A stretch of DNA of 64,000 nt from Sphingobacteriales bacterium 39-19 (GTDB lineage: Bacteria; Bacteroidota; Bacteroidia; Chitinophagales; Chitinophagaceae), in the NCBI GenBank assembly GCA_001898465.1, contig MKTX01000009.1:62001-126000 (forward strand). The letters are read 5' to 3'. Below are positions 7,664-27,871 of the stretch, one piece after another (position 1 is the first letter of the stretch; each line of letters begins with the position of its first letter). The notes beneath the pieces were generated by a model. The model ran no database searches, had not been told where the DNA came from, and saw only the letters and a list, made by a program, of their open reading frames with translations. The position numbers were made by a program, and so were the translations under genes.

Positions 7664-8254
7664 ATGACGGAAGATAAAAATTCCAATACCGAAAGAAAGA
7701 TTAAAGAACTCACCTACCAAATTAGCAGGTACGATGATCAAACAGCCTATAAGGCACTGTTTTTTATTTTATTTCCATCCCTTCAAAATTTTGTTTTCTC
7801 AATATTAAAATCCCGGGTATGGGCCGAAGAAATTGCATCTGATTTATTGATGGATGTTTGGATGAAGCGGGAGCGGCTGGAGGAAATTGAAAACCTGAAA
7901 GTATATCTTTTTGTAAGCGCCAGGCATGCCGCACTGGCCCGGCTAAAGCAGGAACATAAAATGGATTTATTTTCGCTGGATGATGTGGAAGTAGAATTCA
8001 TATCAGATTATACCCACCCGGGCCAGGCTACTGAATTTTCAGAACTGGAATATACCATTGCCAAAACTGTAAAAGAGCTGCCCCCGGCTTGCCAACTCAT
8101 TTATAAATTGGCTAAAGAAGACCGCTTAAAGTATAAAGAAATTGCTCAAATACTCGACCTGAGTGTAAAAACCATCGACAACCAGCTGGCCATTGCCATA
8201 AAAAGAATTGCAGAATCCATCCGGGTGCATAAAAAAACATTTCCCTCCCTTTAG
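7664..8254 (+). CDS. ECF RNA polymerase sigma factor
   Basis: A 196-residue sigma-70 family protein of extracytoplasmic-function type. Region 2 covers about residues 27-95 and region 4 about 130-185. The helix-turn-helix at 155-182 carries the YKEIAQIL...SVKTIDNQL pattern common in Bacteroidota PUL sigma factors. It is followed 38 bases later by FecR and then by a SusC carrying an STN domain. This is the standard trans-envelope circuit in which receptor occupancy frees the sigma factor to transcribe susC and the genes behind it. The start is the first ATG of the frame. Confidence 0.93.
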   Translation: MTEDKNSNTERKIKELTYQISRYDDQTAYKALFFILFPSLQNFVFSILKSRVWAEEIASDLLMDVWMKRERLEEIENLKVYLFVSARHAALARLKQEHKMDLFSLDDVEVEFISDYTHPGQATEFSELEYTIAKTVKELPPACQLIYKLAKEDRLKYKEIAQILDLSVKTIDNQLAIAIKRIAESIRVHKKTFPSL

Positions 8255-8292
8255 GGGATTTTTTTTTAAAACTACTCATATATATAAGAACG

Positions 8293-9414
8293 ATGAGTAA
8301 TGACCGCATTTGGATGTTATTGACCCGTAAACTTTCGGGTGAAGCCACTCAAACAGAGCTGGAAGAACTTGATGCGATCCGGTCTGCCAACCCCGAAGGT
8401 CTCCACCGCATTCAGGAGCTTACTCAAATTTGGAACAAAGAAGCGCTCCAGGACTCCGATTTTATGGAAGCCACCTACCTGGCACATCTGGTAAGAATGA
8501 AAGAAAAAGGTATTGTCCTGAATATGGATGAACCTGAATTAAATGAAAATGAAATAGAAGAGATAAAAGTTAATTCTTCCTGGAAAGCATACCGTAAATT
8601 AATCCTGGCGCTAAGTATTCTGGTTGTACTATTTACCAGTTGGGCCCTGCTTAATACTTCCCATTCCACAAATAACCCCGCTATTGCCGGCAAGCTGAAA
8701 GAAGTACAAACACTAAAAGGAACCCGAACTAAAATCATTTTGCCCGATGGGAGCAATGTATGGTTAAATGCAGGGAGCAAACTGAATTACGAAAAAAAAT
8801 TTGATGCTAAATTAAGAGAAGTCTATCTTTCCGGCGAAGCCTATTTTGATGTAGTTCATAATGCCAAACGGCCCTTCCTCATTCATACAGCAACCATCAA
8901 TATTAAAGTACTGGGAACCCAGTTTAATGTAAAAGCTTACGATGATGATAGTTTAACGGAAACCAGCCTTATTAAAGGCAGTGTGGAAGTATCATTAAAA
9001 AATAATGATTTAAAAAAATACATACTCTGGCCTAACCAAAAATTAATTTTGCCTAATGAGGCATTCCTCGCCATTCAAAAGAAAGTATCTGCTGTAAAAA
9101 GCGATTCAAAAGATTTGGAAATGTATGCCCCGCAAATAAAGGAACTCACCTACCTGAAAGATGATTACAATACCAATATAGAAAGTAGCTGGACGAGAAA
9201 CATATTGTCTTTTGAAGACGAATCATTTACTGAGGTAGCCAAAAAAATGGAGCGCTGGTACGATGTTACCATAAAATTTGTAAACCCACGCTGGGAAAAA
9301 CAATATGTAAGTGGCGCATTTGAAAACGAGAGTTTAGACCAGGCGATGAATGCGCTTAAGTTTACAACAGGGTTTAATTATAAAAAAGAAGGAAACACGA
9401 TTATTATTTATTAA
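8293..9414 (+). CDS. FecR-family anti-sigma factor
   Basis: A 373-residue inner-membrane regulator. The cytoplasmic N-terminal part (about 1-98) would bind the sigma factor, and one membrane helix lies at about 101-120. The periplasmic FecR domain covers about 138-235 (motifs LPDGSNVWLNAGS, GEAYFDV and LGTQFNV), and a C-terminal DUF4974-like domain covers about 303-372. This is the usual architecture of Bacteroidota anti-sigma factors paired with SusC proteins that have an STN domain, as the next gene does. It should hold the ECF sigma inactive until the glycan is sensed. Confidence 0.94.
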   Translation: MSNDRIWMLLTRKLSGEATQTELEELDAIRSANPEGLHRIQELTQIWNKEALQDSDFMEATYLAHLVRMKEKGIVLNMDEPELNENEIEEIKVNSSWKAYRKLILALSILVVLFTSWALLNTSHSTNNPAIAGKLKEVQTLKGTRTKIILPDGSNVWLNAGSKLNYEKKFDAKLREVYLSGEAYFDVVHNAKRPFLIHTATINIKVLGTQFNVKAYDDDSLTETSLIKGSVEVSLKNNDLKKYILWPNQKLILPNEAFLAIQKKVSAVKSDSKDLEMYAPQIKELTYLKDDYNTNIESSWTRNILSFEDESFTEVAKKMERWYDVTIKFVNPRWEKQYVSGAFENESLDQAMNALKFTTGFNYKKEGNTIIIY

Positions 9415-9573
9415 TTAAAATGCTTCAATGCCTGCTTATGAATTTTAAATATGAATATGGTTAACACGATCCGGTGCAAATCAACCAACTACAAAACACG
9501 AATTTTATTTACAGGATACTTCACAAAAAAATTCTTATATTGTTATTACTAACTACCAAACACAAAACTGATA

Positions 9574-12500
9574 ATGAAAAAAGCTAAAACAATTGCAATG
9601 GCGCTCTCTGAGTTAAAAAAGCCATTACTCATTATGAAATTAACATTACTTTTTATTATTGTCTGTACCATGCAAAGCATGGCGGGCCCGGGTGCCAATG
9701 CACAAACTGTTTCAATAAGAGCTGAAAATAAGGAAATCAGTAAAGTGCTTTCTGCCATTCAAAGGCAGGGCGACTTTCGTTTTATTTTCAACAGCCGGCT
9801 TACAGATCTGAATAGAAAAGTATCGGTTGAATTTAAAGATGTTGACATTACAAATGTGATGCAACAATTATTTTCAGGCACCAGCCTTACTTATAAAGTG
9901 CTGGATAATAACCTGGTTGCCATTCGCTCTTTAAATCCTGCTGAGGCAGATATAGAAGTGAACGGCCGGGTGATCAACGATGCGGGTGAACCTGTACTGG
10001 CTTCCATTACAGTAAAAGGAAGCAATAGGGGAACCACTTCGGGTGTGAATGGTAATTTTAGTATAAGTGTACCTGAAAATGCAGTGTTAATCGTATCAGC
10101 TGTGGGCCATAATACGGTAGAAGTTGCCGTAAACGGCCGCCAGCAAATTACCATTACATTAACCCGCTCTGATAAAAAAATGGATGAAGTAGTGGTGATT
10201 GGTTATGGTACTGCCAATAAGAGAGACCTTACGGGTTCTATCACAAAAGTTTCAGGCAGTGAAGTAGCCGATAAACCCAATACAAACCCGGTTGCCTCTT
10301 TGCAAAGCAAAGTAGCAGGCCTAAGTGTAGTAAATAGTGGTACACCGGGGCAGGCACCCGATATACGCATCAGGGGTACAAACAGCCTGGGCGGAAACTT
10401 AAAACCATTATACGTGGTAGATGGTATTTTTAATGATAATATTGATTTCTTAAATCCGGCTGATATTGAATCTATCGAAATTTTAAAAGACCCCTCATCA
10501 CTCGCTATTTTTGGGGTAAGAGGCGCTAATGGCGTTATTGCCGTTACTACTAAAAAAGGAAAGGCAGGGCAAACCAATATTAACTTTAATAGTTCTTACG
10601 GGTTTAAGAAACTGGTAGATAAAATTAAATGGGCAAATGCAAGTGAATTTCAAATGTTGTTTGATGAAGAAAAAACAAATGACGGAACCATTACCGCATC
10701 TCCATTCAATTATAATTTATGGAATGCCAATACCGATTGGATTGATGCCGTTACACAAACAGGAACTTTTAGCAGCAACAACGTAAGCTTAGCAACAGGT
10801 AGTGATAAGAATAAATTTTACATTGGCCTGGGCTATGTAGTAGAAGAAGGAATTATTAAAAGAGAAAAATTAAAAAAATACCTGATTAATGTAAGTGATG
10901 AAGTAAAGGTGAAACCCTGGCTTAAAATGGGCTTCAACTTAAATGTAAATAAACAGGATAATCCTTATGGCGCATCCTGGGTATTAGACGCAGCCCGTAA
11001 AGTATTGCCACAAGTTCCTGCCGGCACTAAAACAGTTTATACCAAAGACCCTTATTCATTAGATAGCGCTAATTATAATTTATATTATGCATTGCCTTCA
11101 ATTCAAAATTCTGGCGTTATCAACCCCTTACTTATTTTAGAAAATGAATGGAATAAAACCATTAGCCAGGAATACCGGACTGTAGGAAATGTATTTGCAG
11201 AATTTACTTTCTTGCGGAACTTTACTTTTAGAACTGCATTTTATGCTGACATAAGTAATGTAGATACCCGGGTTTATACTCCTTTATATAATGCATGGGA
11301 TGCCGAAGGAAATAAACCTTATTTAGAAAGTTACAGAACCCGGGTAAATGAATCTAACCTGGATTATAAAAAATTCCAGACAGATAATATTTTAACCTGG
11401 AAAGGAAAGATTGCAAGAGATCATAATTTAACAGTAATGACAGGGTTCACCACATTTGATGATCGTTATGCAGGCCGTTTTGCCGGCGTGGCACAAAGCG
11501 CTACTGGCAATGCCATTCCCGATGATCCCCGTTTCTGGTATATCACCAATGGGTTTGAAGACAGGACAACTGCAACCAATAGTTCCGGGCAAAGAAGATG
11601 GACAACAGCTTCTGTACTAATGCGTGGTATTTACAATTACCAAAATAAATATTTCTTAAATGCATCATTACGTTATGACGGAACCTCTGCGTTTCCTAAT
11701 AACACATGGCAGCCTTTCTGGGCAGTAGGTGCGGCCTGGGAACTAACCCGGGAAAAATTTATGGAAAATCAAAAAACATTTGATTTCTTAAAAATAAAAG
11801 CATCTACCGGTATCTTAGGAATTCAAAACAGGGGCAACTACGATTATCCCGCTTACCCATTACTTACTACGGGTGGTGGTGTACCATTTGGCAACAATAC
11901 TTATACCGTAGCACAACCCCAATATAATGCCGATAAAGATTTGCATTGGGAAAAGAACAGGGCAATAGAAGCCGGCTTTGAGTTAGAATCTTTTCAACGC
12001 AGGTTACATGTAGATGCGGTTTATTATAATAAAAAGACAACCGACTTACTGGCCTATGTTCATAATATCGGCTCTTTTGATGCATTATTGAACCAGGGTT
12101 CTATCCGCAACAATGGGGTAGAATTAAGTGCCAGCTGGAGGCAACCGGTTAACAAAGATTTTGAAGTAACACTGGCCGGAAACTTTACTACCTATAAAAG
12201 TAAAGTATTGGAACTGGCCAATAATGGTACTCCCATTATCAACAACGCCTCCATCATACAAGTAGGAGCACCCGTAGGCGCATTTTATGGTTATATAGTA
12301 GAAGGTGTTTATCAATCTTATGCCGATAAATTAGCTTCTCCCGTAAATACCGATTTCTCTTATGGCCCCGGTGATTTTAAATATAAAGATGTAAATGGTG
12401 ATGGTATCATCAGTTCTTTAGACCGTACCATTATCGGCGACCCTACCCCTGATTTTGCGTATGGGGGTTCGGTAAATGTTAAATATAAAGGATTTGATCT

Positions 12501-12933
12501 GGGATTGGATTTTGGCGGAGTTTATGGAAATGAAATTTACAGGATGTGGGGGGGTACAGAATCTCCATTTCAAAGAGTAAACTACCCGCAGTTTAAAATT
12601 AACCGTTGGCATGGTGCCGGTACTTCTAACTGGGATCCTATCCTGGGGCAAGGCCACCGGATCAATTACGAATATTCAACTTATGGAATTGAAGATGGTA
12701 GCTATTTCCGGTTAAGGAATATACAGGCCGGTTACAATTTCAGTAATGCCCTTATCTCAAAGATCAGGTTAAAAAGTTTACGCTTATTTGCCAATGTGCA
12801 AAACCTTAAAACCTGGAAAAATAACCTGGGTTATTCACCTGAATTTGGTGGAGATGGATTACAATTTGGTGTTGATAGGGCCGGAAATGCAATCCCCATG
12901 GTAACAACTTTTGGCATCAATGTAAATTTTTAA
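9574..12933 (+). CDS. susC: SusC-family TonB-dependent outer-membrane receptor with STN domain
   Basis: A 1119-residue outer-membrane transporter. After a long signal region (cleavage near 44), an STN signalling domain covers about 45-118. A carboxypeptidase-regulatory-like beta domain follows at 128-200, then the TonB box DEVVVIGYG at 204-212, the plug (about 216-330) and a beta-barrel to the C-terminal aromatic residue. It imports glycan oligosaccharides using TonB energy, with the SusD lipoprotein as lid. The STN domain links it to the FecR/sigma pair upstream. No TAnnTTTG element stands in the 159-base leader, consistent with transcription by the local ECF sigma factor; this is inferred. 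The symbol is given by family, not orthology. Confidence 0.95.
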   Translation: MKKAKTIAMALSELKKPLLIMKLTLLFIIVCTMQSMAGPGANAQTVSIRAENKEISKVLSAIQRQGDFRFIFNSRLTDLNRKVSVEFKDVDITNVMQQLFSGTSLTYKVLDNNLVAIRSLNPAEADIEVNGRVINDAGEPVLASITVKGSNRGTTSGVNGNFSISVPENAVLIVSAVGHNTVEVAVNGRQQITITLTRSDKKMDEVVVIGYGTANKRDLTGSITKVSGSEVADKPNTNPVASLQSKVAGLSVVNSGTPGQAPDIRIRGTNSLGGNLKPLYVVDGIFNDNIDFLNPADIESIEILKDPSSLAIFGVRGANGVIAVTTKKGKAGQTNINFNSSYGFKKLVDKIKWANASEFQMLFDEEKTNDGTITASPFNYNLWNANTDWIDAVTQTGTFSSNNVSLATGSDKNKFYIGLGYVVEEGIIKREKLKKYLINVSDEVKVKPWLKMGFNLNVNKQDNPYGASWVLDAARKVLPQVPAGTKTVYTKDPYSLDSANYNLYYALPSIQNSGVINPLLILENEWNKTISQEYRTVGNVFAEFTFLRNFTFRTAFYADISNVDTRVYTPLYNAWDAEGNKPYLESYRTRVNESNLDYKKFQTDNILTWKGKIARDHNLTVMTGFTTFDDRYAGRFAGVAQSATGNAIPDDPRFWYITNGFEDRTTATNSSGQRRWTTASVLMRGIYNYQNKYFLNASLRYDGTSAFPNNTWQPFWAVGAAWELTREKFMENQKTFDFLKIKASTGILGIQNRGNYDYPAYPLLTTGGGVPFGNNTYTVAQPQYNADKDLHWEKNRAIEAGFELESFQRRLHVDAVYYNKKTTDLLAYVHNIGSFDALLNQGSIRNNGVELSASWRQPVNKDFEVTLAGNFTTYKSKVLELANNGTPIINNASIIQVGAPVGAFYGYIVEGVYQSYADKLASPVNTDFSYGPGDFKYKDVNGDGIISSLDRTIIGDPTPDFAYGGSVNVKYKGFDLGLDFGGVYGNEIYRMWGGTESPFQRVNYPQFKINRWHGAGTSNWDPILGQGHRINYEYSTYGIEDGSYFRLRNIQAGYNFSNALISKIRLKSLRLFANVQNLKTWKNNLGYSPEFGGDGLQFGVDRAGNAIPMVTTFGINVNF

Positions 12934-12954
12934 TGACCGTTCAAATTTAAAATA

Positions 12955-14454
12955 ATGAAAAAACTAATAAATTTTAAAAGCATTCTTTTCCTGCTCCTGT
13001 TAATGGCAACCATGGGCAGTTGTAAAAAATTCTTAGATCAAAAACCTTTTGGCGCCACCATCGATGATTTAAACCAGGGTGGTATCGAAGCCGAAGTTTT
13101 TGGTTGCTATAGTTATATGCGCAGTAATACCGGCTTCGTGGGTATCTCCTGGCTTGCATTTCATGATTTCAGGTCAGATGATTCTGAAAAAGGAAGCGAT
13201 CCTTCAGATGGCCAGGAATGGGTAGCGCCTTTTGATAATTTTCAATACGTAAAAAATATATGGGCCAATGATGTGTATTGGGAAAACCATGTACAACTAA
13301 TTAACCTGGCCAATATTGCCATAGCAAAAGCCGATTCATTGGGCGCTACAGATGCTACTACACTGGCAAACCTGGGAGAAGCCCGCTTTTTCAGGGCATT
13401 CTCTTATTTTGATATGGTGCGTACTTATGGCGAAGTACCTATTTATCGCCAGCCTACCCAATCAGCCAATGATTTATGTGTGGCAAAAGCTACCATTCCT
13501 CAAGTGTATGCCCTCATTGATGAAGACCTTAGTTTTGCTGAAGCCAACCTTCCTTCCAGTTGGGGCTCTGCTTATGAAGGCCGTTTAACCAGTGGCGCAG
13601 CTTTAGCATTGCATGCAAAAGCTTACTTATACCGCCAAAACTGGGCAGCCGCATTAGGCCTTTGTCAGCAAGTAATGGCTCGCCCGCAATATGGTTTATA
13701 CAGTCCTTATTATATGATCTTTAAAGATGCGGGTGAAAATTGTAAAGAATCTTTATTTGAAGTACAGGCATATGTAAGCCCCGATGGATCAAAAGACCTG
13801 GGTTGTGAATTTGCCACCACACAAGGTGTAAGGGCTTCACAAGCTTCGGGCTGGAACCTGGGCTGGGGCTGGAATACACCTACTGATAACCTGGTAAACG
13901 CATACGAACCCGGTGATAAAAGAAAACCTTCTACCATCCTTTTCTCCGGCCAGTCTGATGATCCCACTTACGGTGGTTACGGAAGAACTTTACCCAACGA
14001 TGTAAGTAATGGAGGCCCATTGCCCCGTAAATACTGGAACAAAAAAATATATGCAGATCCTGCTTACCGTGCCTCTACAGGCATGAGCGATAACCCCCGC
14101 TGGATTAATAAAAGAGTTATTCGTTTTTCTGATGTTGTACTCATGGCAGCAGAAGCAAGTAATGAACTGGGCCAGGGCGCAACAGGCATTAACTGGCTGA
14201 ATGATGTAAGAAACAGGGCCGGCCTTTCTGCAAAAACCTATACCACAAAAGAACAACTGAGAGATGATATAAAACACGAAAGGAGAGTAGAGTTTGGGGT
14301 AGAAGGAGAAAGGTTCTTCGACCTGGTACGCTGGGGTGATGCTGAAACCGTTTTGGGCGGATTGGGCTACACACATCGTTGCCGGTTTTATCCAATTCCT
14401 CAAAAAGTAGTGGATGCTTGTCCCGGTGTTATTCAACAAAATCCTGAATGGTAA
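12955..14454 (+). CDS. susD: SusD/RagB-family glycan-binding lipoprotein
   Basis: A 499-residue surface lipoprotein with the lipobox cysteine at residue 23 (MGSC). The body shows the SusD pattern: TPR-like helices with LGEARFFRAFSYFDMVRTYG near residues 138-158, and a C-terminal ERRVEFGVEGERFFDLVRWG segment near 430-455. It binds the polysaccharide at the surface and caps the SusC channel encoded 21 bases upstream. The glycan specificity cannot be read from the sequence. Confidence 0.95.
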   Translation: MKKLINFKSILFLLLLMATMGSCKKFLDQKPFGATIDDLNQGGIEAEVFGCYSYMRSNTGFVGISWLAFHDFRSDDSEKGSDPSDGQEWVAPFDNFQYVKNIWANDVYWENHVQLINLANIAIAKADSLGATDATTLANLGEARFFRAFSYFDMVRTYGEVPIYRQPTQSANDLCVAKATIPQVYALIDEDLSFAEANLPSSWGSAYEGRLTSGAALALHAKAYLYRQNWAAALGLCQQVMARPQYGLYSPYYMIFKDAGENCKESLFEVQAYVSPDGSKDLGCEFATTQGVRASQASGWNLGWGWNTPTDNLVNAYEPGDKRKPSTILFSGQSDDPTYGGYGRTLPNDVSNGGPLPRKYWNKKIYADPAYRASTGMSDNPRWINKRVIRFSDVVLMAAEASNELGQGATGINWLNDVRNRAGLSAKTYTTKEQLRDDIKHERRVEFGVEGERFFDLVRWGDAETVLGGLGYTHRCRFYPIPQKVVDACPGVIQQNPEW

Positions 14455-14481
14455 TTCTTATTCAATTTTAAAAATATTAAA

Positions 14482-15330
14482 ATGAAAAATTTAATTCAAT
14501 CGATCATGGCTGCCACAGCATTTGTATTCCTGCTTATGGGTTGCCAAAAAATGGACAGACCTGCTTTAGGAAATTATCCTGAAGATGTAAATACACCAGG
14601 CGGCCCGTTAAAATTCTATGCTGCCTTTGATGGCACCAGCGACGACCCCTTGCGAAATGCCGTGGATAGTATCCGTGCCAATTTTGCATCCTCTAATCCA
14701 TATACCACAATTGATGGTGTTAACGGGAAAGCCGTGCAAAGTGTAGATAAAAAATTCATAAAGTACCAAAAACCCAATGATTGGGCATCTACCGCTAAAA
14801 GTTTTACCATTTCATGCTGGTATAAAAAAGACGGGCAAACAAAAAATAATGCCGGAGGTAACGGCCCGGAATATATTATGAGTTTTAAATCAAACAACGG
14901 CCATTGGTCGGGCGGAAGTTTTCTCCTGATGTTAGAAGGAAACAATGCCGCATGTGCCGTAAAAGTAATGGTGGTAGATAAAGATATGCACGATGCCTGG
15001 TTTACCTGGGAAGGCGGTAATACCATTCCCGGTTTATTAGATAATCAATGGCATCACCTGGCCATTGTGTACGACAATACAACCAGTACCATGAAATTAT
15101 ATATCAATGGTGTACAAAATCCAATTGTTCCTTCATGGGGTGGCCATGGCGATATAAATATGTCGGATGCCGCTATTAGTGAAATGCGGGTGGGAGCCGG
15201 CCCGCAAAATAATTTCGATTCTGATGATTGGTTATCTTCATCACTCAAAGGAGCATTAGATCAATTAAGATTATATGGTGTGGCGCTAACAGCCAGTGAA
15301 GTAAGCGCTTTGTATACCAACCATGAATAA
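14482..15330 (+). CDS. LamG/concanavalin A-like lipoprotein, probable surface glycan-binding protein
   Basis: A 282-residue lipoprotein with lipobox cysteine 21 (LMGC). Residues about 45-280 form a LamG (concanavalin A-like, jelly-roll) domain, recognisable by the FTISCWYK, NQWHHLAIVYD and MKLYINGV segments and by the C-terminal LDQLRLYGVALTASEV pattern. No glycosidase catalytic pair was recognised, so binding is more likely than hydrolysis. It follows SusD by 27 bases, the usual place for a surface glycan-binding protein. A Rho-independent terminator follows at 15380. Confidence 0.85.
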   Translation: MKNLIQSIMAATAFVFLLMGCQKMDRPALGNYPEDVNTPGGPLKFYAAFDGTSDDPLRNAVDSIRANFASSNPYTTIDGVNGKAVQSVDKKFIKYQKPNDWASTAKSFTISCWYKKDGQTKNNAGGNGPEYIMSFKSNNGHWSGGSFLLMLEGNNAACAVKVMVVDKDMHDAWFTWEGGNTIPGLLDNQWHHLAIVYDNTTSTMKLYINGVQNPIVPSWGGHGDINMSDAAISEMRVGAGPQNNFDSDDWLSSSLKGALDQLRLYGVALTASEVSALYTNHE

Positions 15331-15469: not shown

Positions 15470-16906
15470 ATGAAAAATAAAATATTCCATGCAGGGTTCA
15501 TACTTATTGCTTTCCTGTCGCTTTCAGCGAGCTGCTCAAAAGATAAACCAAGCCCGGTAACAACACCGGTAAACCCACCGCTAACCAATGAAGTAGATTT
15601 TTGGTTAACCCGGGGGGATAAAACCTCATTACTGGAAAAGCAAACAAACATATTGGGCTTTGCCGAAGCTGCCAATGGCTTTACCAATATTATAGTTGAT
15701 TCTGCTGTTACTTATCAAACCATTGATGGATTTGGTTTTACGTTAACAGGTGGTAGCGCCCAATTGATTGACAATATGGGCGCCGCAGAAAAAAATAACC
15801 TGCTCAATGATCTTTTTGCTGCCAATGGCATTGGTATCAGTTACCTGCGTGTGAGTATAGGCGCCTCTGACTTAAGCGCTTCCGTATTTAGTTATGATGA
15901 TATACCTGCCGGCCAAACAGATCCTACTTTAGCAAACTTTAGTTTATCCCAGGATCTTACACACCTGGTTCCAATACTGCAGAAAATATTAGCCATCAAT
16001 CCAAATATTAAAATCTTAGGGTCGCCCTGGAGCCCGCCTGTGTGGATGAAAGATAACGGGAGTAGCATAGGCGGTAGTTTACAATTACAATTTTATGATG
16101 TGTATGCACAATACTTTGTAAAATATGTACAGGCCATGGCTGCATTGGGCATACCGATTGCTGCCATTACCATACAAAATGAACCCCTGCATGGTGGCAA
16201 TAACCCCAGTATGATCATGACAGCAGCCGAACAGGCCAATTTTATAAAAAATAATTTAGGCCCGGCCTTCCAGGCAGCATCTATTCAAACAAAAATTATT
16301 ATTTGGGATCATAATTGTGATAATCCGGGATACCCATTAAGCATTTTAAATGATGCCGCAGCGAGGCCCTTTGTAGATGGTTCGGCATTTCATTTATATG
16401 CCGGGGATATCAGCGCTTTATCATCGGTGCATGATGCATACCCCGATAAGAATGTTTACTTCACAGAACAATGGACTTCGGCCAATGGCTCTTTTGATGG
16501 CGACCTGGCATGGCATATCAAAAATGTAATCATCGGCTCTATGCGTAACTGGAGTAAGGTTGCTTTAGAATGGAACCTGGCAAACGATCCCAATTATCAA
16601 CCCCATACCCCCGGCGGCTGTACCGAATGTAAAGGGGCGCTCACCATCAGCGGATCGGGCGTGGCAAAAAATGTGGCTTACTATATTATTGCACATGCTT
16701 CTAAATTTATTCCTGCGGGTTCAGTAAGAATCAGCAGTACATCGGCGGGTAGTTTACCTTCTGTTGCATTTAAAACCCCCAATGGTAAAAAAGTACTTAT
16801 TGTTTTGAATGAAGGAAGCACAGCGCAATCTTTTAATATTAAGTATAAAAATAAATGGGTTACGCCCAATTTGCCTGCCGGTGCAGTAGGTACATTTGTT
16901 TGGTAA
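15470..16906 (+). CDS. GH30-family glycoside hydrolase lipoprotein
   Basis: A 478-residue lipoprotein (lipobox cysteine 22, SASC) of glycoside hydrolase family 30. Typical GH30 landmarks are GFGFTLTGGSA near 87-97, SPWSPPVWMK at 185-194, the acid/base Glu238 in IQNEP and the nucleophile Glu333 in YFTEQW. The C-terminal beta-sandwich of the family is present. The GGC..C.GALTI segment near 385-395 resembles bacterial endo-beta-1,6-glucanases of GH30 as I remember them, so beta-1,6-glucanase is the best guess. Other GH30 activities (glucosylceramidase, beta-glucosidase, xylanase) are not excluded. A lipid anchor places it at the surface or in the periplasm. It lies 140 bases after the LamG gene, behind a terminator. 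Confidence 0.9.
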   Translation: MKNKIFHAGFILIAFLSLSASCSKDKPSPVTTPVNPPLTNEVDFWLTRGDKTSLLEKQTNILGFAEAANGFTNIIVDSAVTYQTIDGFGFTLTGGSAQLIDNMGAAEKNNLLNDLFAANGIGISYLRVSIGASDLSASVFSYDDIPAGQTDPTLANFSLSQDLTHLVPILQKILAINPNIKILGSPWSPPVWMKDNGSSIGGSLQLQFYDVYAQYFVKYVQAMAALGIPIAAITIQNEPLHGGNNPSMIMTAAEQANFIKNNLGPAFQAASIQTKIIIWDHNCDNPGYPLSILNDAAARPFVDGSAFHLYAGDISALSSVHDAYPDKNVYFTEQWTSANGSFDGDLAWHIKNVIIGSMRNWSKVALEWNLANDPNYQPHTPGGCTECKGALTISGSGVAKNVAYYIIAHASKFIPAGSVRISSTSAGSLPSVAFKTPNGKKVLIVLNEGSTAQSFNIKYKNKWVTPNLPAGAVGTFVW

Positions 16907-20128: not shown

Positions 20129-20147
20129 TGGATATTTAAATGTATAA

Positions 20148-21494
20148 ATGATGCTTAAAAACATTGCGATTGTAGTCTTCCTTTTTTTTAGTACCGCCGG
20201 TTATACACAAAAAACGGCAACACCTTCTTTTGACCCGGTAAAAAGGCCCAAGAATTTATCTGACTCTGCTTTACTTGATTTGGTACAAAAACAAACTTTT
20301 ACCTATTTCTGGGATTTTGCACACCCGGTAAGCGGCCTGGCCAGGGAAAGAAGTAATGAAACTTTTAGTTATGGCCCCGAAACAGTAACAATGGGTGGCA
20401 GCGGTTTTGGAGTAATGAGTGTGATTGTTGCCACCGAAAGAAAATGGATAGGCCGGGATACGGCTGCCAAATTTTTATTAAAAATGGTAAAGTTTTTATC
20501 AAAAGCAAATTCATACCATGGCGTTTTTCCTCATTGGTTAAATGGCGCCACAGGAAATACCATTCCGTTTAGCAGGAAAGATGATGGCGCTGATTTGGTA
20601 GAGACCTCATTTTTATTCCAGGGATTATTATGTGCACGGCAATATTTTAATGGCAACAATCCTGTAGAAAAAGGATTAAGGGCAAGAATCAATGGACTAT
20701 GGAATGATATTGAATGGAATTGGTTTACTAAAGGCGGACAAAATGTATTGTATTGGCATTGGAGCCCAAATAATGGATGGGCCATGGATTTCCCGGTGAA
20801 AGGATTCAATGAATGTTTGATCATGTATGTATTGGCAGCCAGCCAGGAGGGAAAATATGCAGTGCCTGCAGATGTGTATCATAGAGGTTGGGCAGAAAGT
20901 AATTTTTTTATCAATAAACGAAAATTTTATGGATATACATTACCATTGGGATTCGATTATGGCGGACCTTTATTCTTTTCGCAATATTCATTTTTAGGAT
21001 TAGATCCCCGGGGCTTAACCGATCGGTATACAAATTACTGGGAACAAAATCAAAATCATACATTCATAAACCGGGCATATTGTATTGACAATCCTAAAGA
21101 ATTTAAAGGCTATGGGCCTGATTGCTGGGGCCTTACAGCCAGTGATACCTGGAATGGATATACCGCTCATTCACCTACCAACGATAATGGTACCATATCG
21201 CCAACGGCTGCTCTTTCTGCTTTTCCTTATACACCGGAGTATAGTATGCAGGCATTAAAGCATTTTTATTACGACATGGGTGATAAACTATGGTCACAGT
21301 ATGGTTTTTATGATGCCTTTAACCAAACAAAAAACTGGGTTGCCAGTTCACACCTGGCCATCGACCAGGGGCCCATCATTGTAATGATAGAGAATTATCG
21401 TTCCGGTTTATTATGGAAATTATTTATGAGTTGCCCCGAAGTGAAACTGGGTTTAAAAAAATTAGATTTTAAAAGTCCATACTTTACGAATTAA
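20148..21494 (+). CDS. GH144-type endo-beta-1,2-glucanase (second)
   Basis: A 448-residue exported protein with a Sec signal peptide (cleavage near Thr20-Gln21) and a single GH144 domain. It shares TFTYFWDFAHPVSGLARER, the acidic cluster Asp145/Asp149/Glu152 and Glu222 (FNECL) with the gene 19 bases upstream, but lacks the lipobox and the Ig-like domain. It would therefore be soluble in the periplasm or secreted, shortening oligosaccharides imported through SusC. Whether it is endo-acting or releases sophorose-type products cannot be told from the sequence. Confidence 0.87.
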   Translation: MMLKNIAIVVFLFFSTAGYTQKTATPSFDPVKRPKNLSDSALLDLVQKQTFTYFWDFAHPVSGLARERSNETFSYGPETVTMGGSGFGVMSVIVATERKWIGRDTAAKFLLKMVKFLSKANSYHGVFPHWLNGATGNTIPFSRKDDGADLVETSFLFQGLLCARQYFNGNNPVEKGLRARINGLWNDIEWNWFTKGGQNVLYWHWSPNNGWAMDFPVKGFNECLIMYVLAASQEGKYAVPADVYHRGWAESNFFINKRKFYGYTLPLGFDYGGPLFFSQYSFLGLDPRGLTDRYTNYWEQNQNHTFINRAYCIDNPKEFKGYGPDCWGLTASDTWNGYTAHSPTNDNGTISPTAALSAFPYTPEYSMQALKHFYYDMGDKLWSQYGFYDAFNQTKNWVASSHLAIDQGPIIVMIENYRSGLLWKLFMSCPEVKLGLKKLDFKSPYFTN

Positions 21495-21500
21495 TCAATA

Positions 21501-22304
21501 ATGAAAAAAATGTGGCCGGTAATTTTATTACTTATTGCGACTAGCTTTATTACGATGCAGGTATTAGCACAGGATTACCGGGCATATAAAAAAGAACAGC
21601 TTACAATAGGCACAGATAGCCTGCCATACAGGATTTTATTGCCTCTCCATTATGCTCCAGGTGAACAATATCCCGTAATCTTTTTTTTGCATGGCGCAGG
21701 GGAAAGGGGCAACGATAATGAAAAGCAACTTATACATGTAGGTAAATTATTTTTAAAAGATTCAGTGCGTAAGAAATACCCGGCTATCATCATTTTTCCG
21801 CAATGCCCCGAAGATTCTTACTGGAGCAATGTTTTAATAGATACCGATTCGGCTACCCAAAAAAGATCATTCCATTTTTCTGTAGATGAACCCCCTACAA
21901 TTGCTATGCAAATGCTGATCAATCTTATTGATCACATAGAAAATAATTACAAGATTAAAAAAGAACAGGTATATGTGATGGGCTTATCCATGGGCGGCAT
22001 GGGTACTTTTGAACTTGTAAAAAGAAAACCTGATTTTTTTGCTGCCGCTATTTCCATTTGCGGTGGTGCTAACCCGCTAACAGCACCGCTATTATCGCAT
22101 ACCCGCTGGTGGATTTTTCATGGTGCCAAAGATAATGTCGTGTCTCCTGAACATTCTGTAACTATGGCAGGTGCTTTACAAAAAGCCGGCGCCGATGTAA
22201 AATTTACATTATACCCCCAGGCAAATCATAATAGCTGGGATAATGCATTTGCAGAGCCGGTTTTATTCAACTGGGTATTTCAAAATAAAAAAGATGTAAG
22301 ATGA
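21501..22304 (+). CDS. Secreted alpha/beta-hydrolase esterase (CE1/PHB depolymerase-like)
   Basis: A 267-residue exported serine hydrolase with a signal peptide to about Ala23. HGAGERG at 64-70 provides the oxyanion loop, the nucleophile is Ser163 (GLSMGG), and Asp211 and His243 complete the triad. The fold type is the dienelactone hydrolase/feruloyl-esterase-like group that is common in PULs. It probably removes ester-linked groups (acyl or aromatic) from the glycan, but the acyl group is unknown. Six bases separate it from GH144, and its stop overlaps the next start (ATGA), so translation is coupled. Confidence 0.82.
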   Translation: MKKMWPVILLLIATSFITMQVLAQDYRAYKKEQLTIGTDSLPYRILLPLHYAPGEQYPVIFFLHGAGERGNDNEKQLIHVGKLFLKDSVRKKYPAIIIFPQCPEDSYWSNVLIDTDSATQKRSFHFSVDEPPTIAMQMLINLIDHIENNYKIKKEQVYVMGLSMGGMGTFELVKRKPDFFAAAISICGGANPLTAPLLSHTRWWIFHGAKDNVVSPEHSVTMAGALQKAGADVKFTLYPQANHNSWDNAFAEPVLFNWVFQNKKDVR

Positions 22305-23140
22305 AATATATAATATTCTCCATGCTGTTTTTCTTCAGCTTTCATATGTATGCACAAACAACGGTTAAGATGATGAGCTATAATATCCGGCTGGATGTAG
22401 CTTCCGATGGAGAAAACCGGTGGGATGCAAGAAAAGATAAATTGGCAACACTTGTAAATTACTATGAACCTGATTTTATGGGCGGCCAGGAAGTGCAACA
22501 GCACCAGCTTACTTATTTATTAAGTGCATTAAAAGGATATGATTATATCGGCGTGGGCCGTGATGATGGAAAAACCGGGGGAGAATATTCATGCATCTTT
22601 TATAAAAATGATAAATATAAATGCATCCTGCAATCTACTTTTTGGCTTTCACCCACTCCTGATTCTGTTTCTTTCGGCTGGCATGCTGCCTGCAGGAGGG
22701 TGTGTACTTATGGCTTATTTAAAGTAAAGAAATCAAAACAATTCATTTGGGTTTTTAATACCCATTTTGATCATATCAGTGCAGAAGCAAGATTAGAATC
22801 AGCAAAACTGATCTTGAAAAAAATAAATGAACTCAATACAAAAAAATATCCCGTTATAATTTCAGGAGATTTTAATTCAAAACCTGGTGAAGCGCCTGCA
22901 AAATATATGATGGAATATGTAAACAACAGCAGGAATATAAGTGACCTGGTATTTGGGCCATTGAAAACATTTAATGCCTTTCAGTATTGCAAAGAAGCTG
23001 AAAGCAGCATTGATTATATTTTTGTTTCAAAGGACCCTCGCATCCATGTCTCTAAATTTGCAACCCTCACCGATTCTTACGATTTAAAATATCCATCCGA
23101 TCATTTTCCAGTTTTGGCCACCATAATAATCAAGAAATGA
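22301..23140 (+). CDS. Secreted endonuclease/exonuclease/phosphatase-fold enzyme
   Basis: A 279-residue exported protein (signal peptide to about Ala18) of the EEP superfamily. The catalytic pattern is complete: Asn28, Glu64 (GGQE), His155 (NTHFDH), Asp190/Asn192 (GDFN), Asp238 (IDYIF) and Asp267-His268 (SDHFP). Family members hydrolyse phosphodiesters in nucleic acids, sphingomyelin or inositol phosphates. Being inside a PUL and exported, a phosphate- or phosphodiester-bearing glycan substituent is a plausible target (inference). It overlaps by 4 bases both the esterase before it and the GH43-like gene after it. Confidence 0.87.
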   Translation: MKYIIFSMLFFFSFHMYAQTTVKMMSYNIRLDVASDGENRWDARKDKLATLVNYYEPDFMGGQEVQQHQLTYLLSALKGYDYIGVGRDDGKTGGEYSCIFYKNDKYKCILQSTFWLSPTPDSVSFGWHAACRRVCTYGLFKVKKSKQFIWVFNTHFDHISAEARLESAKLILKKINELNTKKYPVIISGDFNSKPGEAPAKYMMEYVNNSRNISDLVFGPLKTFNAFQYCKEAESSIDYIFVSKDPRIHVSKFATLTDSYDLKYPSDHFPVLATIIIKK

Positions 23141-24897
23141 AATTTACATTCGTTTTTATATTCGTTTTGTTTTTCACAATATCATCTTTTGCCCAGCAAC
23201 AAAGCTATTGTAACCCGGTAAACCTGGATTATGGGTACACTCCCTTTCCTTCTTTTACCGAATGGGGAAGGCACCGGGCAACTGCCGATCCTGTAATTGT
23301 AAATTACAAAGGCGATTACTATCTTTTTAGCACCAACCAATGGGGCTATTGGTACAGCAGCGATATGTACAACTGGAATTTTGTATCAAAAAAATTCTTA
23401 CGGCCCTGGAATCATGTATTGGATGAATTGTGTGCACCCGCAGTGGGAATCATTGGAGATACGATGCTTGTATTTGGATCTACTTATTCAAATAATTTTA
23501 CTTTGTGGATGAGTACCAATCCCAAAGCAAATGAATGGAAGCCTTTGGTAGATTCATTTGAAATAGGGGGATGGGATCCTGCATTTTTTACAGATGATGA
23601 TGGGCGTCTCTATATGTATAATGGCAGCAGCAACAGGTATCCCGTTTATGGTGTAGAGTTAGATAGAAAAACGTTTAAACCCATGGGTACCCGTACCCCT
23701 ATGTATTTATTGCAGGATTGGCGGTATGGCTGGCAGCGTTTTGGAGAGCACATGGATAATACTTTTTTAGATCCATTTATTGAAGGTGCCTGGATGACCA
23801 AACACAAAAACAAATATTATTTTCAATATGGCGCACCGGGCACTGAATTTAGTGGCTATGCCGATGGGGTAGTGGTAGGAGATAAAGCGCTTTTTGATGG
23901 AGCCAGTACCGAACCACAGAGCGACCCGCTAAGTTTTAAAGCCGGTGGTTTTTCACGGGGAGCTGGCCACGGATCTACCTTCCGGGATAATGCAGGAAAC
24001 TACTGGCATGTATCTACTTCTATCATTTGTGTAAAAAATACCTGGGAACGCAGGATGGGAATTTGGCCGGCAGGCTTTGATGATGATGATGTGATGTGGT
24101 GCAATACTGCATTTGGAGACTACCCTCACCGGTTGCCTTCTGCAAAAAATGAAAACTCCAGGACGAACTACAATGAATCCGGCTTTATGGGCTGGTACCT
24201 CTTAAATTATAAAAAACCGGTTACGGTCTCATCTACCCTAGGAAATTATAATGCCAATAATGCCGTGGATGAAAGTATAAAAACGTATTGGAGCGCTCAA
24301 TCTGCAAAGGCAGGTGAATGGATACAATCTGACCTGGGAAGCATTTCAACGGTACATGCCATACAAATAAATTATGCCGACCAGGATGCTGAATTTTTGG
24401 GTAAGCAAACCAATATTTATCATCAATATAAATTGTATTACTCTTTAGATGGTAAGAATTGGCGATTACTGGCCGATAAAAGCGCTAACAAAAAAGATGT
24501 TCCGCATGATTATATTGAATTACCCAAACCGGTGCAGGCAAAGTTTATCAGGCTTGAAAATATACATATGCCAACCGGCAAATTTGCAATCAGTGGTTTG
24601 CGTGTTTTTGGTAACGGCAAAGGAGCCAGGCCGGCCACCACAAAAAATTTAATTGTGCTGAGAACCGAAAAAGACAAACGCAGCGCTTATATAAAATGGG
24701 CTCCTGTTGATAATGCCTTTGCATATAATTTATACTACGGCACGGCTCCCGATAAAATGTACAATTGTATTATGATACATGATGTGAACGAGTATTGGTT
24801 TAAAGCCATGGATAGCAAGAAAAAATATTATTTTACATTAGAATCAGTGAATGAAAACGGGGTGAGTGAAAAATTTCAAATCAGGGAGGCAGAGTAA
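23137..24897 (+). CDS. GH43-like glycosidase with F5/8 type C and FN3-like domains
   Basis: A 586-residue exported protein with a signal peptide (to about residue 20). Residues about 40-340 form a five-bladed propeller of the GH43 type. The expected acids are visible: Asp51 (TADP), Asp147 (GWDPAFF) and Glu216 (FIEGAWM). Residues about 355-495 are a discoidin/F5/8 type C carbohydrate-binding domain, and about 500-586 resemble fibronectin type III. GH43 enzymes usually act on arabinosides or xylosides, but distant members have other activities, and nothing else in the locus suggests pentoses. The specificity is therefore open. Translation is coupled to the preceding gene by ATGA. Confidence 0.82.
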   Translation: MKFTFVFIFVLFFTISSFAQQQSYCNPVNLDYGYTPFPSFTEWGRHRATADPVIVNYKGDYYLFSTNQWGYWYSSDMYNWNFVSKKFLRPWNHVLDELCAPAVGIIGDTMLVFGSTYSNNFTLWMSTNPKANEWKPLVDSFEIGGWDPAFFTDDDGRLYMYNGSSNRYPVYGVELDRKTFKPMGTRTPMYLLQDWRYGWQRFGEHMDNTFLDPFIEGAWMTKHKNKYYFQYGAPGTEFSGYADGVVVGDKALFDGASTEPQSDPLSFKAGGFSRGAGHGSTFRDNAGNYWHVSTSIICVKNTWERRMGIWPAGFDDDDVMWCNTAFGDYPHRLPSAKNENSRTNYNESGFMGWYLLNYKKPVTVSSTLGNYNANNAVDESIKTYWSAQSAKAGEWIQSDLGSISTVHAIQINYADQDAEFLGKQTNIYHQYKLYYSLDGKNWRLLADKSANKKDVPHDYIELPKPVQAKFIRLENIHMPTGKFAISGLRVFGNGKGARPATTKNLIVLRTEKDKRSAYIKWAPVDNAFAYNLYYGTAPDKMYNCIMIHDVNEYWFKAMDSKKKYYFTLESVNENGVSEKFQIREAE

Positions 24898-24898
24898 T

Positions 24899-25555
24899 AT
24901 GAAAAAAATATTCCTGGTATTTTTTATTGGCTGCTTATATTTTGCAAATGCACAGCAGCACCCTCCTTTTTGGAAAGAGATACAGGAGTTTAAAACTCAG
25001 GATAGCCTGGCTTTTCCTGAGCCCAATCAAATTTTATTTGCAGGCAGTTCTTCTTTTACCAAATGGACCGATGTACAGGATTATTTCCCCGGCTTTCCCA
25101 TCATCAACCGGGGTTTTGGCGGTTCATCACTTACCGATTTAATTCGCTATGCCAATGATATTATTTTACCCTATCAACCCAGGCAAATTGTAATTTATTG
25201 TGGCGAGAACGATTTTGCAGCTAACGAACAAGTAAGCGCAGCAGAGGTAGCCAAACGCTTTTATCTATTATTTTCTATCATTCGCAAAAAGTATAAAAAA
25301 TTACCTGTGGTTTATGTGTCAATGAAGCCAAGTCCATCCAGGATACAGCTGATGCCAAAATTTGATTCAGCTAATTATATGATTAAACAATTTTTAAAGA
25401 AAAGACCCCGAACCGCTTTTGCAGATGTATATCATGCCATGTTGCAAAAAGACGGAACGGTAAAACAAGAAATATTTTTAAAAGATAACCTGCACATGAA
25501 TAGTAAGGGCTATCATATCTGGCAACAAATTTTAAGACCTTATTTAAAAAAATAA
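24899..25555 (+). CDS. Secreted SGNH/GDSL hydrolase
   Basis: A 218-residue exported protein. The start at 24899 is chosen because it gives a clean signal peptide (to about Ala18); the frame could also open at 24866 inside the previous gene. The four SGNH blocks are present: Ser51 in AGSSS, Gly74-75 in RGFGGSS, Asn104 in CGEND, and Asp196/His199 in DNLHMNSKGY. Such enzymes remove O-acetyl or related ester groups from glycans. With the CE1-like enzyme, this locus carries two esterases, which implies a substituted polymer. It is separated by one base from the GH43-like gene. Confidence 0.86.
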   Translation: MKKIFLVFFIGCLYFANAQQHPPFWKEIQEFKTQDSLAFPEPNQILFAGSSSFTKWTDVQDYFPGFPIINRGFGGSSLTDLIRYANDIILPYQPRQIVIYCGENDFAANEQVSAAEVAKRFYLLFSIIRKKYKKLPVVYVSMKPSPSRIQLMPKFDSANYMIKQFLKKRPRTAFADVYHAMLQKDGTVKQEIFLKDNLHMNSKGYHIWQQILRPYLKK

Positions 25556-25585
25556 TTTGAAAACCATCCACAAAAAATGTAAAAT

Positions 25586-27871
25586 ATGAAGCGAATTTTT
25601 TGGTTAATCCCCTGCTTTTTAGTGTTATTTTCTGTTCATTCATTTGCCCAGCAGAATGATAAATCTAAAATGGATTTGTTCATTAATAATTTGATGAACA
25701 AGATGACACTCGATGAAAAGATAGGCCAGCTTAACTTACCCGGCTCGGGTGATATTGTTACAGGCCAGGCGAAAAGCTCAGACATTGGTAAAAAAATAAA
25801 AGCAGGCCAGGTAGGCGGACTGTTTAATATTAAAGGCGTTGAAAAAATAAGAGAAGTACAAAGAGTAGCCGTTGAAGAATCCAGATTAAAAATTCCTTTA
25901 CTTTTTGGTATGGATGTAATACATGGTTACGAAACTACATTCCCCATACCCCTGGCATTAAGTTGTAGCTGGAATTTAAAAATGATAGAACAAACAGCCC
26001 GGGTGGCTGCTATTGAAGCAAGCGCCAGTGGCATTAACTGGACCTTTAGCCCCATGGTAGATATTTGCCGTGACCCACGCTGGGGGCGCATTGCAGAAGG
26101 AAGTGGTGAAGATGCTTACCTGGGTTCACAAATTGCTGCTGCCATGGTGAAAGGATACCAGGGCGATTATTCTTTAAACAGCAATATCATGGCCTGTGTA
26201 AAACATTATGCATTGTATGGGGCTGCGGAAGCCGGCAGGGATTATAATACCACCGACATGAGCAGGATTCGGATGTTCAATGAATATTTACCGCCCTATA
26301 AAGCAGCTGTTGATGCAGGTGTAGGAAGTGTAATGGCCTCTTTTAATGAAGTGGATGGTATCCCGGCAACCGGCAATAAATTCCTGATGACTGATGTGTT
26401 AAGAAATCAATGGGGCTTCAAAGGTTTTGTTGTAACGGATTATACAGGAATTAACGAAATGATTGATCATGGTATGGGGGATCTGCAGCAGGTATCTGCT
26501 TTGGCACTCAACGCCGGTATTGATATGGATATGGTAGGTGAGGGATTTTTGCTTACGTTGAAAAAATCATTACAACAAGGTAAAGTGAAACTTTCTCAAA
26601 TTAACAATGCCTGCCGCTTGATTTTAGAAGCAAAATACAAACTGGGTTTGTTTGATAATCCGTATAAATATTGCGATTTACAAAGAAGTAAAACAGAAGT
26701 ATATACACCGGCACATAAAAAATTTGCACGTGAAGCAGCGGCAGAAAGTTTTGTGTTACTAAAAAATAAAGATGGATTGTTACCATTAAAAAAAACAGGA
26801 AAAATTGCATTGATTGGCCCATTGGCCAATAGCAAAGAAAATATGCCGGGAACCTGGAGCGTGGCCACGATACTTAAAAATTCAATAAGTGTAAAAGAAG
26901 GATTAGAAAATGCTGTAGGAAATGGTGCCCAAATATTGTATGCTAAAGGTTCTAATATAGAAGCAGACAGCAACCTGGAAAAACGAGGCACCATGTTTGG
27001 CCGGGAAATAGGCAGGGATAACCGTACAGAAAAAGAATTATTGGATGAGGCTTTGGAGATTGCCAGCCAGAGTGATGTAATTATTGCAGCTTTGGGTGAA
27101 GCTTCAGAAATGAGTGGAGAAAGCAGCAGCCGTTCTCATATTGATATGCCCCATACCCAATTAAAATTATTAAAAGCATTGGTAAAAACCGGCAAACCTG
27201 TTGTGCTGGTATTATTTACCGGCAGGCCGCTTACAATAACATGGGAAAATAAAAATGTTCCTGCCATTTTAAATGTATGGTTTGGCGGAAGCGAAGCAGG
27301 AAATGCCATTGCTGATGTATTGTTTGGTGATGTAAATCCATCGGGGAAGCTGAGTACCACCTTCCCTCAAAACATTGGCCAGGTGCCCCTTTACTATAAT
27401 CATAAAAATACGGGCAGGCCCTTGCCCGAAGGTAAATGGTTTGAGAAATTCCGCAGCAATTATTTAGATGTAAGCAATGATCCCTTGTATCCTTTTGGCT
27501 TCGGGTTAAGTTATAGTGATTTTGAGTATAGCGATATTACAGTAAGCAGTAAAAAGGTAAAAGGAAATGCTACTTTAACGGCATCGGTAACCGTTACCAA
27601 TAAAAGTAAAACTGATGGTAAAGAAGTGGTTCAATTGTATATCAGGGATATAGTAGGCAGCGTAACCCGCCCAGTAAAAGAACTGAAAGGATTTAAAAAA
27701 GTAACCATAAAAGCAGGTGAATCACAAAAAGTAAGTTTTCAAATCACTCCCAGCGATCTTAAATTTTATAATTACAATTTAAAATACGATTGGGAAGCAG
27801 GTGATTTTAATATTATGATTGGCGGTAATTCCAGGGATGTAAAATCGGTAATGATAAATTGGGTTAAATAA
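25586..27871 (+). CDS. bglX: GH3 beta-glucosidase (BglX-like)
   Basis: A 761-residue periplasmic enzyme with a signal peptide to about Ala21. The GH3 N-terminal barrel (about 30-370) carries the KHY motif at 206-208 and the nucleophile Asp285 in FVVTDYTG. The GH3 C-terminal domain (about 385-620) supplies the probable acid/base Glu512 in SGESSSR, and a fibronectin III-like domain lies at about 660-755. Length and domain order match E. coli BglX. It would cut beta-linked glucose units from oligosaccharides such as sophoro- or gentio-oligosaccharides, finishing the work of GH144 and GH30. It is the last gene of the locus. Confidence 0.93.
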   Translation: MKRIFWLIPCFLVLFSVHSFAQQNDKSKMDLFINNLMNKMTLDEKIGQLNLPGSGDIVTGQAKSSDIGKKIKAGQVGGLFNIKGVEKIREVQRVAVEESRLKIPLLFGMDVIHGYETTFPIPLALSCSWNLKMIEQTARVAAIEASASGINWTFSPMVDICRDPRWGRIAEGSGEDAYLGSQIAAAMVKGYQGDYSLNSNIMACVKHYALYGAAEAGRDYNTTDMSRIRMFNEYLPPYKAAVDAGVGSVMASFNEVDGIPATGNKFLMTDVLRNQWGFKGFVVTDYTGINEMIDHGMGDLQQVSALALNAGIDMDMVGEGFLLTLKKSLQQGKVKLSQINNACRLILEAKYKLGLFDNPYKYCDLQRSKTEVYTPAHKKFAREAAAESFVLLKNKDGLLPLKKTGKIALIGPLANSKENMPGTWSVATILKNSISVKEGLENAVGNGAQILYAKGSNIEADSNLEKRGTMFGREIGRDNRTEKELLDEALEIASQSDVIIAALGEASEMSGESSSRSHIDMPHTQLKLLKALVKTGKPVVLVLFTGRPLTITWENKNVPAILNVWFGGSEAGNAIADVLFGDVNPSGKLSTTFPQNIGQVPLYYNHKNTGRPLPEGKWFEKFRSNYLDVSNDPLYPFGFGLSYSDFEYSDITVSSKKVKGNATLTASVTVTNKSKTDGKEVVQLYIRDIVGSVTRPVKELKGFKKVTIKAGESQKVSFQITPSDLKFYNYNLKYDWEAGDFNIMIGGNSRDVKSVMINWVK

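Follow-up and report, generated by a model that had tools for sequence, protein, structure and literature searches.

Pairing of GH144 and GH30 enzymes in a Chitinophagaceae polysaccharide utilization locus points to a decorated beta-1,2/beta-1,6-glucan as candidate substrate

Introduction

Which polymer is consumed through a locus that combines predicted beta-1,2-glucanases with a predicted beta-1,6-glucanase? The question is posed by a 64-kb stretch of DNA (the window) from the 3.32-Mb draft genome of Sphingobacteriales bacterium 39-19, a member of the Chitinophagaceae, in which positions 7664-27871 form a single co-directional polysaccharide utilization locus (PUL) of 14 genes, all on the + strand (Table 1). 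The initial annotation listed two enzymes each of glycoside hydrolase families GH144 and GH30, a GH3 enzyme, two esterases, an EEP-fold enzyme and ECF/FecR and SusCD components, and proposed that the locus degrades a substituted beta-1,2/beta-1,6-glucan such as the osmoregulated periplasmic glucans of the Escherichia coli type. All of these genes are present where they had been placed and on the + strand, but the list omitted a LamG lipoprotein and, more importantly, a GH43 enzyme with an F5/8C domain. A polymer with runs of both beta-1,2- and beta-1,6-glucan is likely the best reading of the locus, whereas the substrate is probably not a glucan of the E. coli type. More specifically, the PUL may import and digest one decorated glucan in which beta-1,2 runs occur together with beta-1,6 runs of about three or more glucoses. 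This interpretation is preferred here, although tentatively, because of the genes present and their arrangement, the catalytic residues that are retained and the repeated occurrence of the combination in the family.

Results

The two GH144 proteins, GH144a and GH144b, are 58% identical, and each matches PF10091 and the endo-beta-1,2-glucanase CpSGL (PDB 5gzh). Both retain the CpSGL glutamates E142 and E211, the equivalents being E265 and E335 in GH144a and E152 and E222 in GH144b; residue E211 of CpSGL has a catalytic role. The family assignment made initially holds, and beta-1,2-glucan is the predicted linkage specificity of both proteins. The GH3 protein matches 3u48 and 5xxl with >1100 bits each, the latter presumably being BT_3567, a beta-glucosidase that prefers beta-1,2 linkages.

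The first GH30 protein, GH30a, is not grouped with xylanases, an outcome that the initial annotation had named as damaging to its proposal. Instead, the nearest PDB match is BT3312 of Bacteroides thetaiotaomicron (5ngk), with SrfJ second at 157 bits. In the alignment GH30a keeps all 13 of the named active-site residues of BT3312 (D131, W179, N237, E238, N244, H281, N282, D286, E339, W345, W377, C393 and C396), and thereby possesses the catalytic Glu pair and the BT3312 specificity residues by which subfamily GH30_3 was recognized; the subfamily was assigned from closeness to BT3312 rather than with dbCAN. Residue N244 is one of two in the BT3312 active site that lack conservation among the GH30 enzymes with which BT3312 was compared, and BT3312 is unable to hydrolyze gentiobiose and depends on the -2 subsite (PMC5481569). 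Because GH30a keeps the BT3312 residues, it is expected to cut inside beta-1,6 runs and not at single branches. The second protein, GH30b, is closer to SrfJ and to human GBA than to BT3312 and was therefore designated GH30_1-like, SrfJ being taken as a member of GH30_1.

The combination of the two families was examined across related genomes. PF10091 matches, some of them synthase-like, were detected in 138 of 392 sampled Bacteroidota genomes, 78 of which were sampled as 79 stretches (two from G379) together with the synthase stretch L113. Of these stretches, 78 yielded GH144, and four of the 78 also had GH30, all from the Chitinophagaceae. The GH43, GH144b and GH30a proteins of the window were used to search 117 genomes of this family. 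As GH144 positions were entered for 73 of the 78 positive genomes, the links of GH30a and GH43 to GH144 are lower bounds; the count omits a GH30a fragment (G414:C600) and, for three GH43 matches that were split, the second half. GH30a homologues with ≥60% identity were situated within 20 kb of GH144 in at least 29 of 53 cases compared to at least 3 of 36 for those below 60%, and GH43 homologues with ≥55% identity in at least 40 of 60 cases compared to at least 1 of 10 below 55%. Chance would produce 0.5 of the 53 and 0.6 of the 60, respectively, in an assumed genome of 4.7 Mb. The pairing of GH30 with GH144 is real and not due to chance, and GH30a is within 20 kb of GH144 in at least 32 genomes from 26 genera. 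In a tree of 62 GH30a proteins, for which the bootstrap is not fully settled, linkage to GH144 needs 8 changes compared to ~20.9 when labels are shuffled, and none of 500 shuffles was as low.

Gene content was compared among three groups of loci: 30 combined ones (the window included), 31 that have GH30a but no GH144 in the stretch fetched, and 74 that have GH144 but no GH30 in stretches of up to 20 kb. The co-occurrence of GH30 and GH144 noted initially in the window was thereby seen in 30 inspected loci. These represent 30 of the 32 linked genomes, G409 and G447 having been left out, whereas the GH30-only loci cover 32 of 57 unlinked GH30a matches; two of these loci (G434 and G455) have GH144 ~27 kb away, outside the stretch. 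A GH30 and a GH144 gene are immediate same-strand neighbors in 22 of the 30 combined loci as judged by eye. GH43 is the most constant partner, being present in 27 combined loci (25 without G292 and G471, entered by hand), 0 GH30-only loci and 17 GH144-only loci. The corresponding counts are 21, 1 and 11 for LamG, 6, 0 and 20 for the alpha/beta-hydrolase esterase, 21, 2 and 8 for GDSL, 24, 5 and 41 for GH3, 3, 1 and 4 for EEP, and 3, 0 and 0 for a PF01663 phosphodiesterase. Thus, GH43 and the alpha/beta-hydrolase esterase go with the GH144 module. A further set, of named loci, comprised the best 80 GH30a loci listed, 34 with and 46 without GH144, and shares some genomes with the set of 117; among its members is L250 of Flavihumibacter petaseus NBRC 106054, a cultured carrier of the locus. 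Here GH43 accompanies 17 of 34 loci with GH144 but 2 of 46 without; in those two (L180 and L185) the genes are arranged GH43-GDSL-GH3, as in combined loci, and the locus may run past the fetched flank.

The SusD proteins of the named loci with GH144 score a median of 495 bits (89-792) against the SusD of the window, compared to a median of 121 bits without GH144 (39-148 bits, except 477 in L207). Six GH144-only loci of the family (L035, L037-L040 and L043) have SusD proteins that score 237-327 bits. The importer therefore resembles an offshoot of the beta-1,2-glucan type. Because the SusD of the window is nearer to those of GH144-only than of GH30-only loci, the locus likely originated as a beta-1,2-glucan PUL that acquired beta-1,6-glucanases with which a mixed polymer could be opened.

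The GH43 protein matches PF04616, and its catalytic candidates D51, D147 and E216, presumed to be the GH43 Asp/Asp/Glu triad, are invariant in 16 sequences (the window protein and 15 homologues). A single-sequence PDB search matched the F5/8C part only, whereas a profile of the 16 sequences matched GH43 enzymes with 4qqs as best PDB entry and no clear subfamily. An AlphaFold2 model built with 20 close sequences was too poor to be used for a fold search (mean pLDDT 52.7). Known GH43 enzymes act on xylosides and furanosides, not on glucose.

PDB matches of the EEP protein are 3mpr and 4c1r, of which 4c1r bears the name mannosyl-6-phosphatase. Within the family, the three proteins most closely related to it (67, 66 and 49% identity; G412, G091 and G442) are all encoded beside GH144, and within the named set the window protein scores higher against copies in combined loci (294-435 bits) than against other copies (187-294 bits). 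On account of the three family relatives EEP was first favored as a marker of phosphoglycerol on beta-1,2-glucan. This assignment was abandoned as Flavobacterium-type GH30 loci carry EEP without GH144: in the named set the gene is commoner where GH144 is missing (21 of 46 GH30a loci) than where it is present (7 of 34). EEP therefore does not speak for phosphoglycerol on a beta-1,2-glucan, nor is it a phosphodiester-removing enzyme specific to beta-1,2-glucan loci. The loci with EEP but without GH144 are mostly from Flavobacterium, Lutibacter and other Flavobacteriaceae, and EEP is a regular part of GH30_3/GH30_1 loci of this type. Of the 34 combined named loci, 5 include a PF01663 phosphodiesterase-type gene, one match being weak (48 bits), whereas none of the other 46 does; the PF01663 protein from L034 had no PDB relative at 1e-8.

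The stretch contains an adjacent SusC/SusD pair, the only one in the PUL, together with carbohydrate-active enzymes. Gaps from SusC to GH3 range from -32 to 139 bp, and 159 bp separate FecR from SusC. Inspection by eye revealed a Cys past a hydrophobic stretch at the N-termini of SusD, LamG, GH30a, GH30b and GH144a, and plain signal-peptide-like N-termini in GH144b, the alpha/beta-hydrolase esterase, EEP, GH43, GDSL and GH3. From these N-termini GH30a, GH30b and GH144a are predicted to be surface enzymes and the remaining enzymes to be periplasmic.

Table 1. Genes of the PUL and the matches on which their designations are based.
Feature	Position	Strand	Evidence
ECF sigma factor (regulator)	7664-8254	+	PF08281, PF04542; TIGR02985 111 bits, under the cut-off of 126.4
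FecR-type anti-sigma factor/sensor	8293-9414	+	PF04773, PF16344
SusC-like TonB-dependent transporter with STN domain	9574-12933	+	PF07715, PF13715, PF07660
SusD-like glycan-binding protein, predicted surface lipoprotein	12955-14454	+	PF07980, PF14322; Cys23 past hydrophobic stretch (by eye)
LamG (ConA-like), predicted surface glycan-binding lipoprotein	14482-15330	+	PF13385; Cys21 past hydrophobic stretch (by eye)
GH30a, GH30_3-like, predicted surface endo-beta-1,6-glucanase	15470-16906	+	BT3312 (5ngk) 267 bits; 13/13 residues; NF053856 374 bits, cut-off 700
GH30b, GH30_1-like, predicted exo-acting beta-glucosidase-type lipoprotein	16965-18440	+	SrfJ (2wnw) 283, human GBA 245, BT3312 191 bits
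GH144a, Big_5 + GH144, predicted lipoprotein endo-beta-1,2-glucanase	18452-20128	+	PF10091, PF13205; CpSGL (5gzh) 435 bits
GH144b, predicted periplasmic beta-1,2-glucanase	20148-21494	+	PF10091; CpSGL (5gzh) 570 bits
Alpha/beta-hydrolase esterase	21501-22304	+	PF00326, PF02230, PF00756
EEP-fold phosphatase/phosphodiesterase-type enzyme, predicted secreted	22301-23140	+	PF03372; PDB 3mpr, 4c1r
GH43 + F5/8-type C domain, predicted to remove a non-glucose side sugar	23137-24897	+	PF04616, PF00754
GDSL esterase	24866-25555	+	PF13472; true translation start likely the inner ATG at 24899
GH3 beta-glucosidase-type enzyme	25586-27871	+	PF00933, PF01915, PF14310; PDB 3u48 1236 bits, 5xxl 1144 bits

The PUL is followed, 125 bp past GH3, by a gene whose product has PKD repeats and a type IX secretion signal (27997-31146, +). 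PKD/CHU_C proteins are located between GH144 genes in some relatives, their likeness to the window protein being mainly C-terminal. Two LD-carboxypeptidase (S66) type genes, with 49% identity to one another, are located on either side of the PUL and on the other strand (6631-7545 and 31155-32168, both -). A PF00884 protein with a hydrophobic N-terminal part is encoded at 34465-36399 (-) and matches lipoteichoic acid synthase weakly (57 bits, cut-off 970); phosphoglycerol transferases are of the same broad family.

Further genes were noted in related loci. Among the 30 combined loci, 20 encode a conserved FG-GAP/ASPIC-UnbV protein of 1100 aa (L034:588-3893 and relatives) and 10 have a cytochrome c-type gene, both typically near LamG/GH30a and neither in the window; the FG-GAP/ASPIC-UnbV protein was not found in the genome of the window at 1e-30, an empty result that alone is not proof of absence. 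The combined locus of a congener has a catabolic-type cassette set between GH144 and GH43 (L114:1652-13847), which comprises a KDPG-type aldolase, Gfo/Idh, SDR, ROK kinase and SIS isomerase, together with glucosamine-6-phosphate deaminase-like and methionine-synthase-like proteins, DoxX, a GMC oxidoreductase and a Rieske protein that most resembles glycine betaine monooxygenase (361 of 670 bits). Similar genes, judged by sequence starts only, are present in L116, L127/L137 and L142. The cassette hints at the breakdown of an amino- or methylated sugar. Among GH144-only loci, 9 of 74 include a PF00884/SGSH_C sulfatase like L062:14901-16364; sulfatases have been reported in marine GH144 PULs (PMC6499787).

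Discussion

If the locus is directed at one mixed polymer, the sugar would be sensed through FecR and the ECF factor. At the cell surface, where SusD, LamG, GH30a, GH30b and GH144a would reside as lipoproteins, beta-1,6 runs would be cut by GH30a and beta-1,2 runs by GH144a, and SusC would provide the entry route for oligosaccharides. In the periplasm, acyl groups would be taken off by the alpha/beta-hydrolase esterase and the GDSL enzyme, a phosphate group by EEP and a non-glucose side sugar by GH43, while GH144b would shorten the beta-1,2 chains and GH3 would release glucose. The substrate likely bears another sugar as well as small chemical groups, among which a phosphate group is plausible. 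One mixed polymer is favored because the SusD is of the GH144 branch type and because GH30 directly adjoins GH144 in most combined loci.

Several observations weigh against this interpretation. The linkage specificities are assigned through homology, and GH30a, although it resembles BT3312 by its residues, is by sequence no equivalog under the NCBIfam model NF053856, for which its 374 bits fall short of the 700 required. We know of no natural polymer with long runs of both beta-1,2- and beta-1,6-glucan. In L126, L138 and L139 (G459, G467 and G431) GH30a is held in a separate, neighboring SusC/D unit, and in L118, L119, L125, L128 and L131 it does not adjoin GH144. Moreover, L044 (G379) has a combined-type SusD (467 bits) without GH30, and L150 (G397) has GH30a with a combined-type SusD (494 bits) and LamG without GH144 in the stretch fetched; therefore the two modules can part. 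The loci are also mutually related, and the counts consequently are not independent.

The same separations are compatible with a two-substrate locus, in which one regulon serves two distinct glucans met in the same niche: fungal or lichen beta-1,6-glucan, attacked by the GH30 module with EEP, and bacterial beta-1,2-glucan, attacked by the GH144/GH43/GH3 module. Each of the two modules is also widespread by itself, in GH30_3+GH30_1 loci that lack GH144 and in GH144 loci that lack GH30, and frequent GH144 PULs as well as GH30_1/GH30_3 PULs with high synteny across distant taxa have been noted (PMC6499787). However, a single SusC/D pair serves both modules in the window, the same-strand adjacency of GH30 and GH144 recurs, and the SusD is unlike that of GH30-only loci. 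Two substrates thus appear a somewhat unlikely explanation, albeit the strongest competitor of the single mixed polymer.

The osmoregulated periplasmic glucan of the E. coli type is an unlikely target. In this glucan a short beta-1,2-linked chain bears glucose branches in beta-1,6 linkage as well as succinate, phosphoglycerol and phosphoethanolamine (PMC11842490). GH144, the esterases, EEP and GH3 would fit such a molecule, as would the proximity to GH144 of the closest EEP relatives and the restriction of the PF01663 gene to combined loci. Nevertheless, the branches in E. coli are single glucoses, for which a GH30_3 enzyme would be a poor debrancher given the failure of BT3312 on gentiobiose. 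GH43 belongs to the GH144 module, yet we know of no bond for it in this glucan, and EEP is commoner in GH30 loci that lack GH144. The initial contention that each enzyme class has a matching bond in this polymer is accordingly not supported, even though this glucan is, to our knowledge, the only well-known polymer with both linkages.

The genome of the window (G000) also encodes, at L113:5842-14538 (-) on C1, a 2899-aa protein with the layout of a cyclic beta-1,2-glucan synthase, in which PF10091 is combined with GH94 domains (PF06165 twice and PF17167) and a glycosyltransferase match below threshold; cyclic beta-1,2-glucan may be a product of some Bacteroidota themselves. That the PUL recycles such a glucan made by the bacterium or its kin, with the GH30 enzymes as side activities, is nonetheless very improbable, as a match to the middle part of this protein is found in 22 of the 117 family genomes (own genome included) and, among the 32 linked GH30a/GH144 genomes, only in G000, G425, G439 and G489, and as two GH30 enzymes, EEP and GH43 would be left unexplained.

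The locus has relatives among described systems. The fungal 1,6-beta-glucan PUL of B. thetaiotaomicron (BT3309-BT3314) shares SusC/D, a surface glycan-binding lipoprotein, a GH30_3 endo-1,6-beta-glucanase with the same 13 residues and GH3, whereas the window adds the GH30_1-like enzyme, two GH144, GH43, the esterases and EEP, and has an ECF/FecR regulator (PMC5481569). The GH144 beta-1,2-glucan PULs of Bacteroidota share SusC/D, GH144 and often GH3 (PMC6499787), and the GH144-only loci compared above share in addition the esterase, GH43, LamG and GDSL in part, but none of the 74 stretches has a GH30 like that of the window. Conversely, GH30_3+GH30_1+EEP loci of Flavobacterium and Lutibacter (L186, L198, L203, L225 and others) have GH30a, GH30b, EEP and often GH3 in common with the window, without GH144 or GH43 in the stretches fetched and with a SusD unlike that of the window. 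The separate PUL types are already known, and the PUL of the window is a fusion of the GH144 and GH30_1/GH30_3 types. No description of this fusion or of the GH144+GH43 partnership was found in the consulted sections of the literature searched.

A hint at a non-glucose sugar also comes from a GH144 PUL of Bacteroides xylanisolvens, which has the GH35 beta-1,2-galactosidase Bxy_22780, inactive on beta-1,2-gluco-oligosaccharides, where the window has GH43; GH30 is not mentioned in the consulted sections of that article (PMC11739564). In view of this parallel and of GH43 in the GH144 module, GH144 loci may target heteropolymers more often than assumed. The fusion is also a caution not to regard each GH144 locus as one that serves simply for the use of beta-1,2-glucan. 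Recurrence of the enzyme pairing in 26 sampled genera suggests a widespread polymer. It is conceivable, although doubtful, that an undescribed and widespread beta-1,2/beta-1,6-glucan exists which bears a GH43-removed non-glucose side sugar and ester/phosphate groups, that a single conserved locus for its consumption has been retained in Chitinophagaceae of no fewer than 26 sampled genera, and that some relatives add an oxidative and amino-sugar-type catabolic cassette within that locus. If one polymer is the reason for the fusion, a common natural glucan would still be undescribed, and the locus would supply the enzymes with which to find and sequence that glucan.

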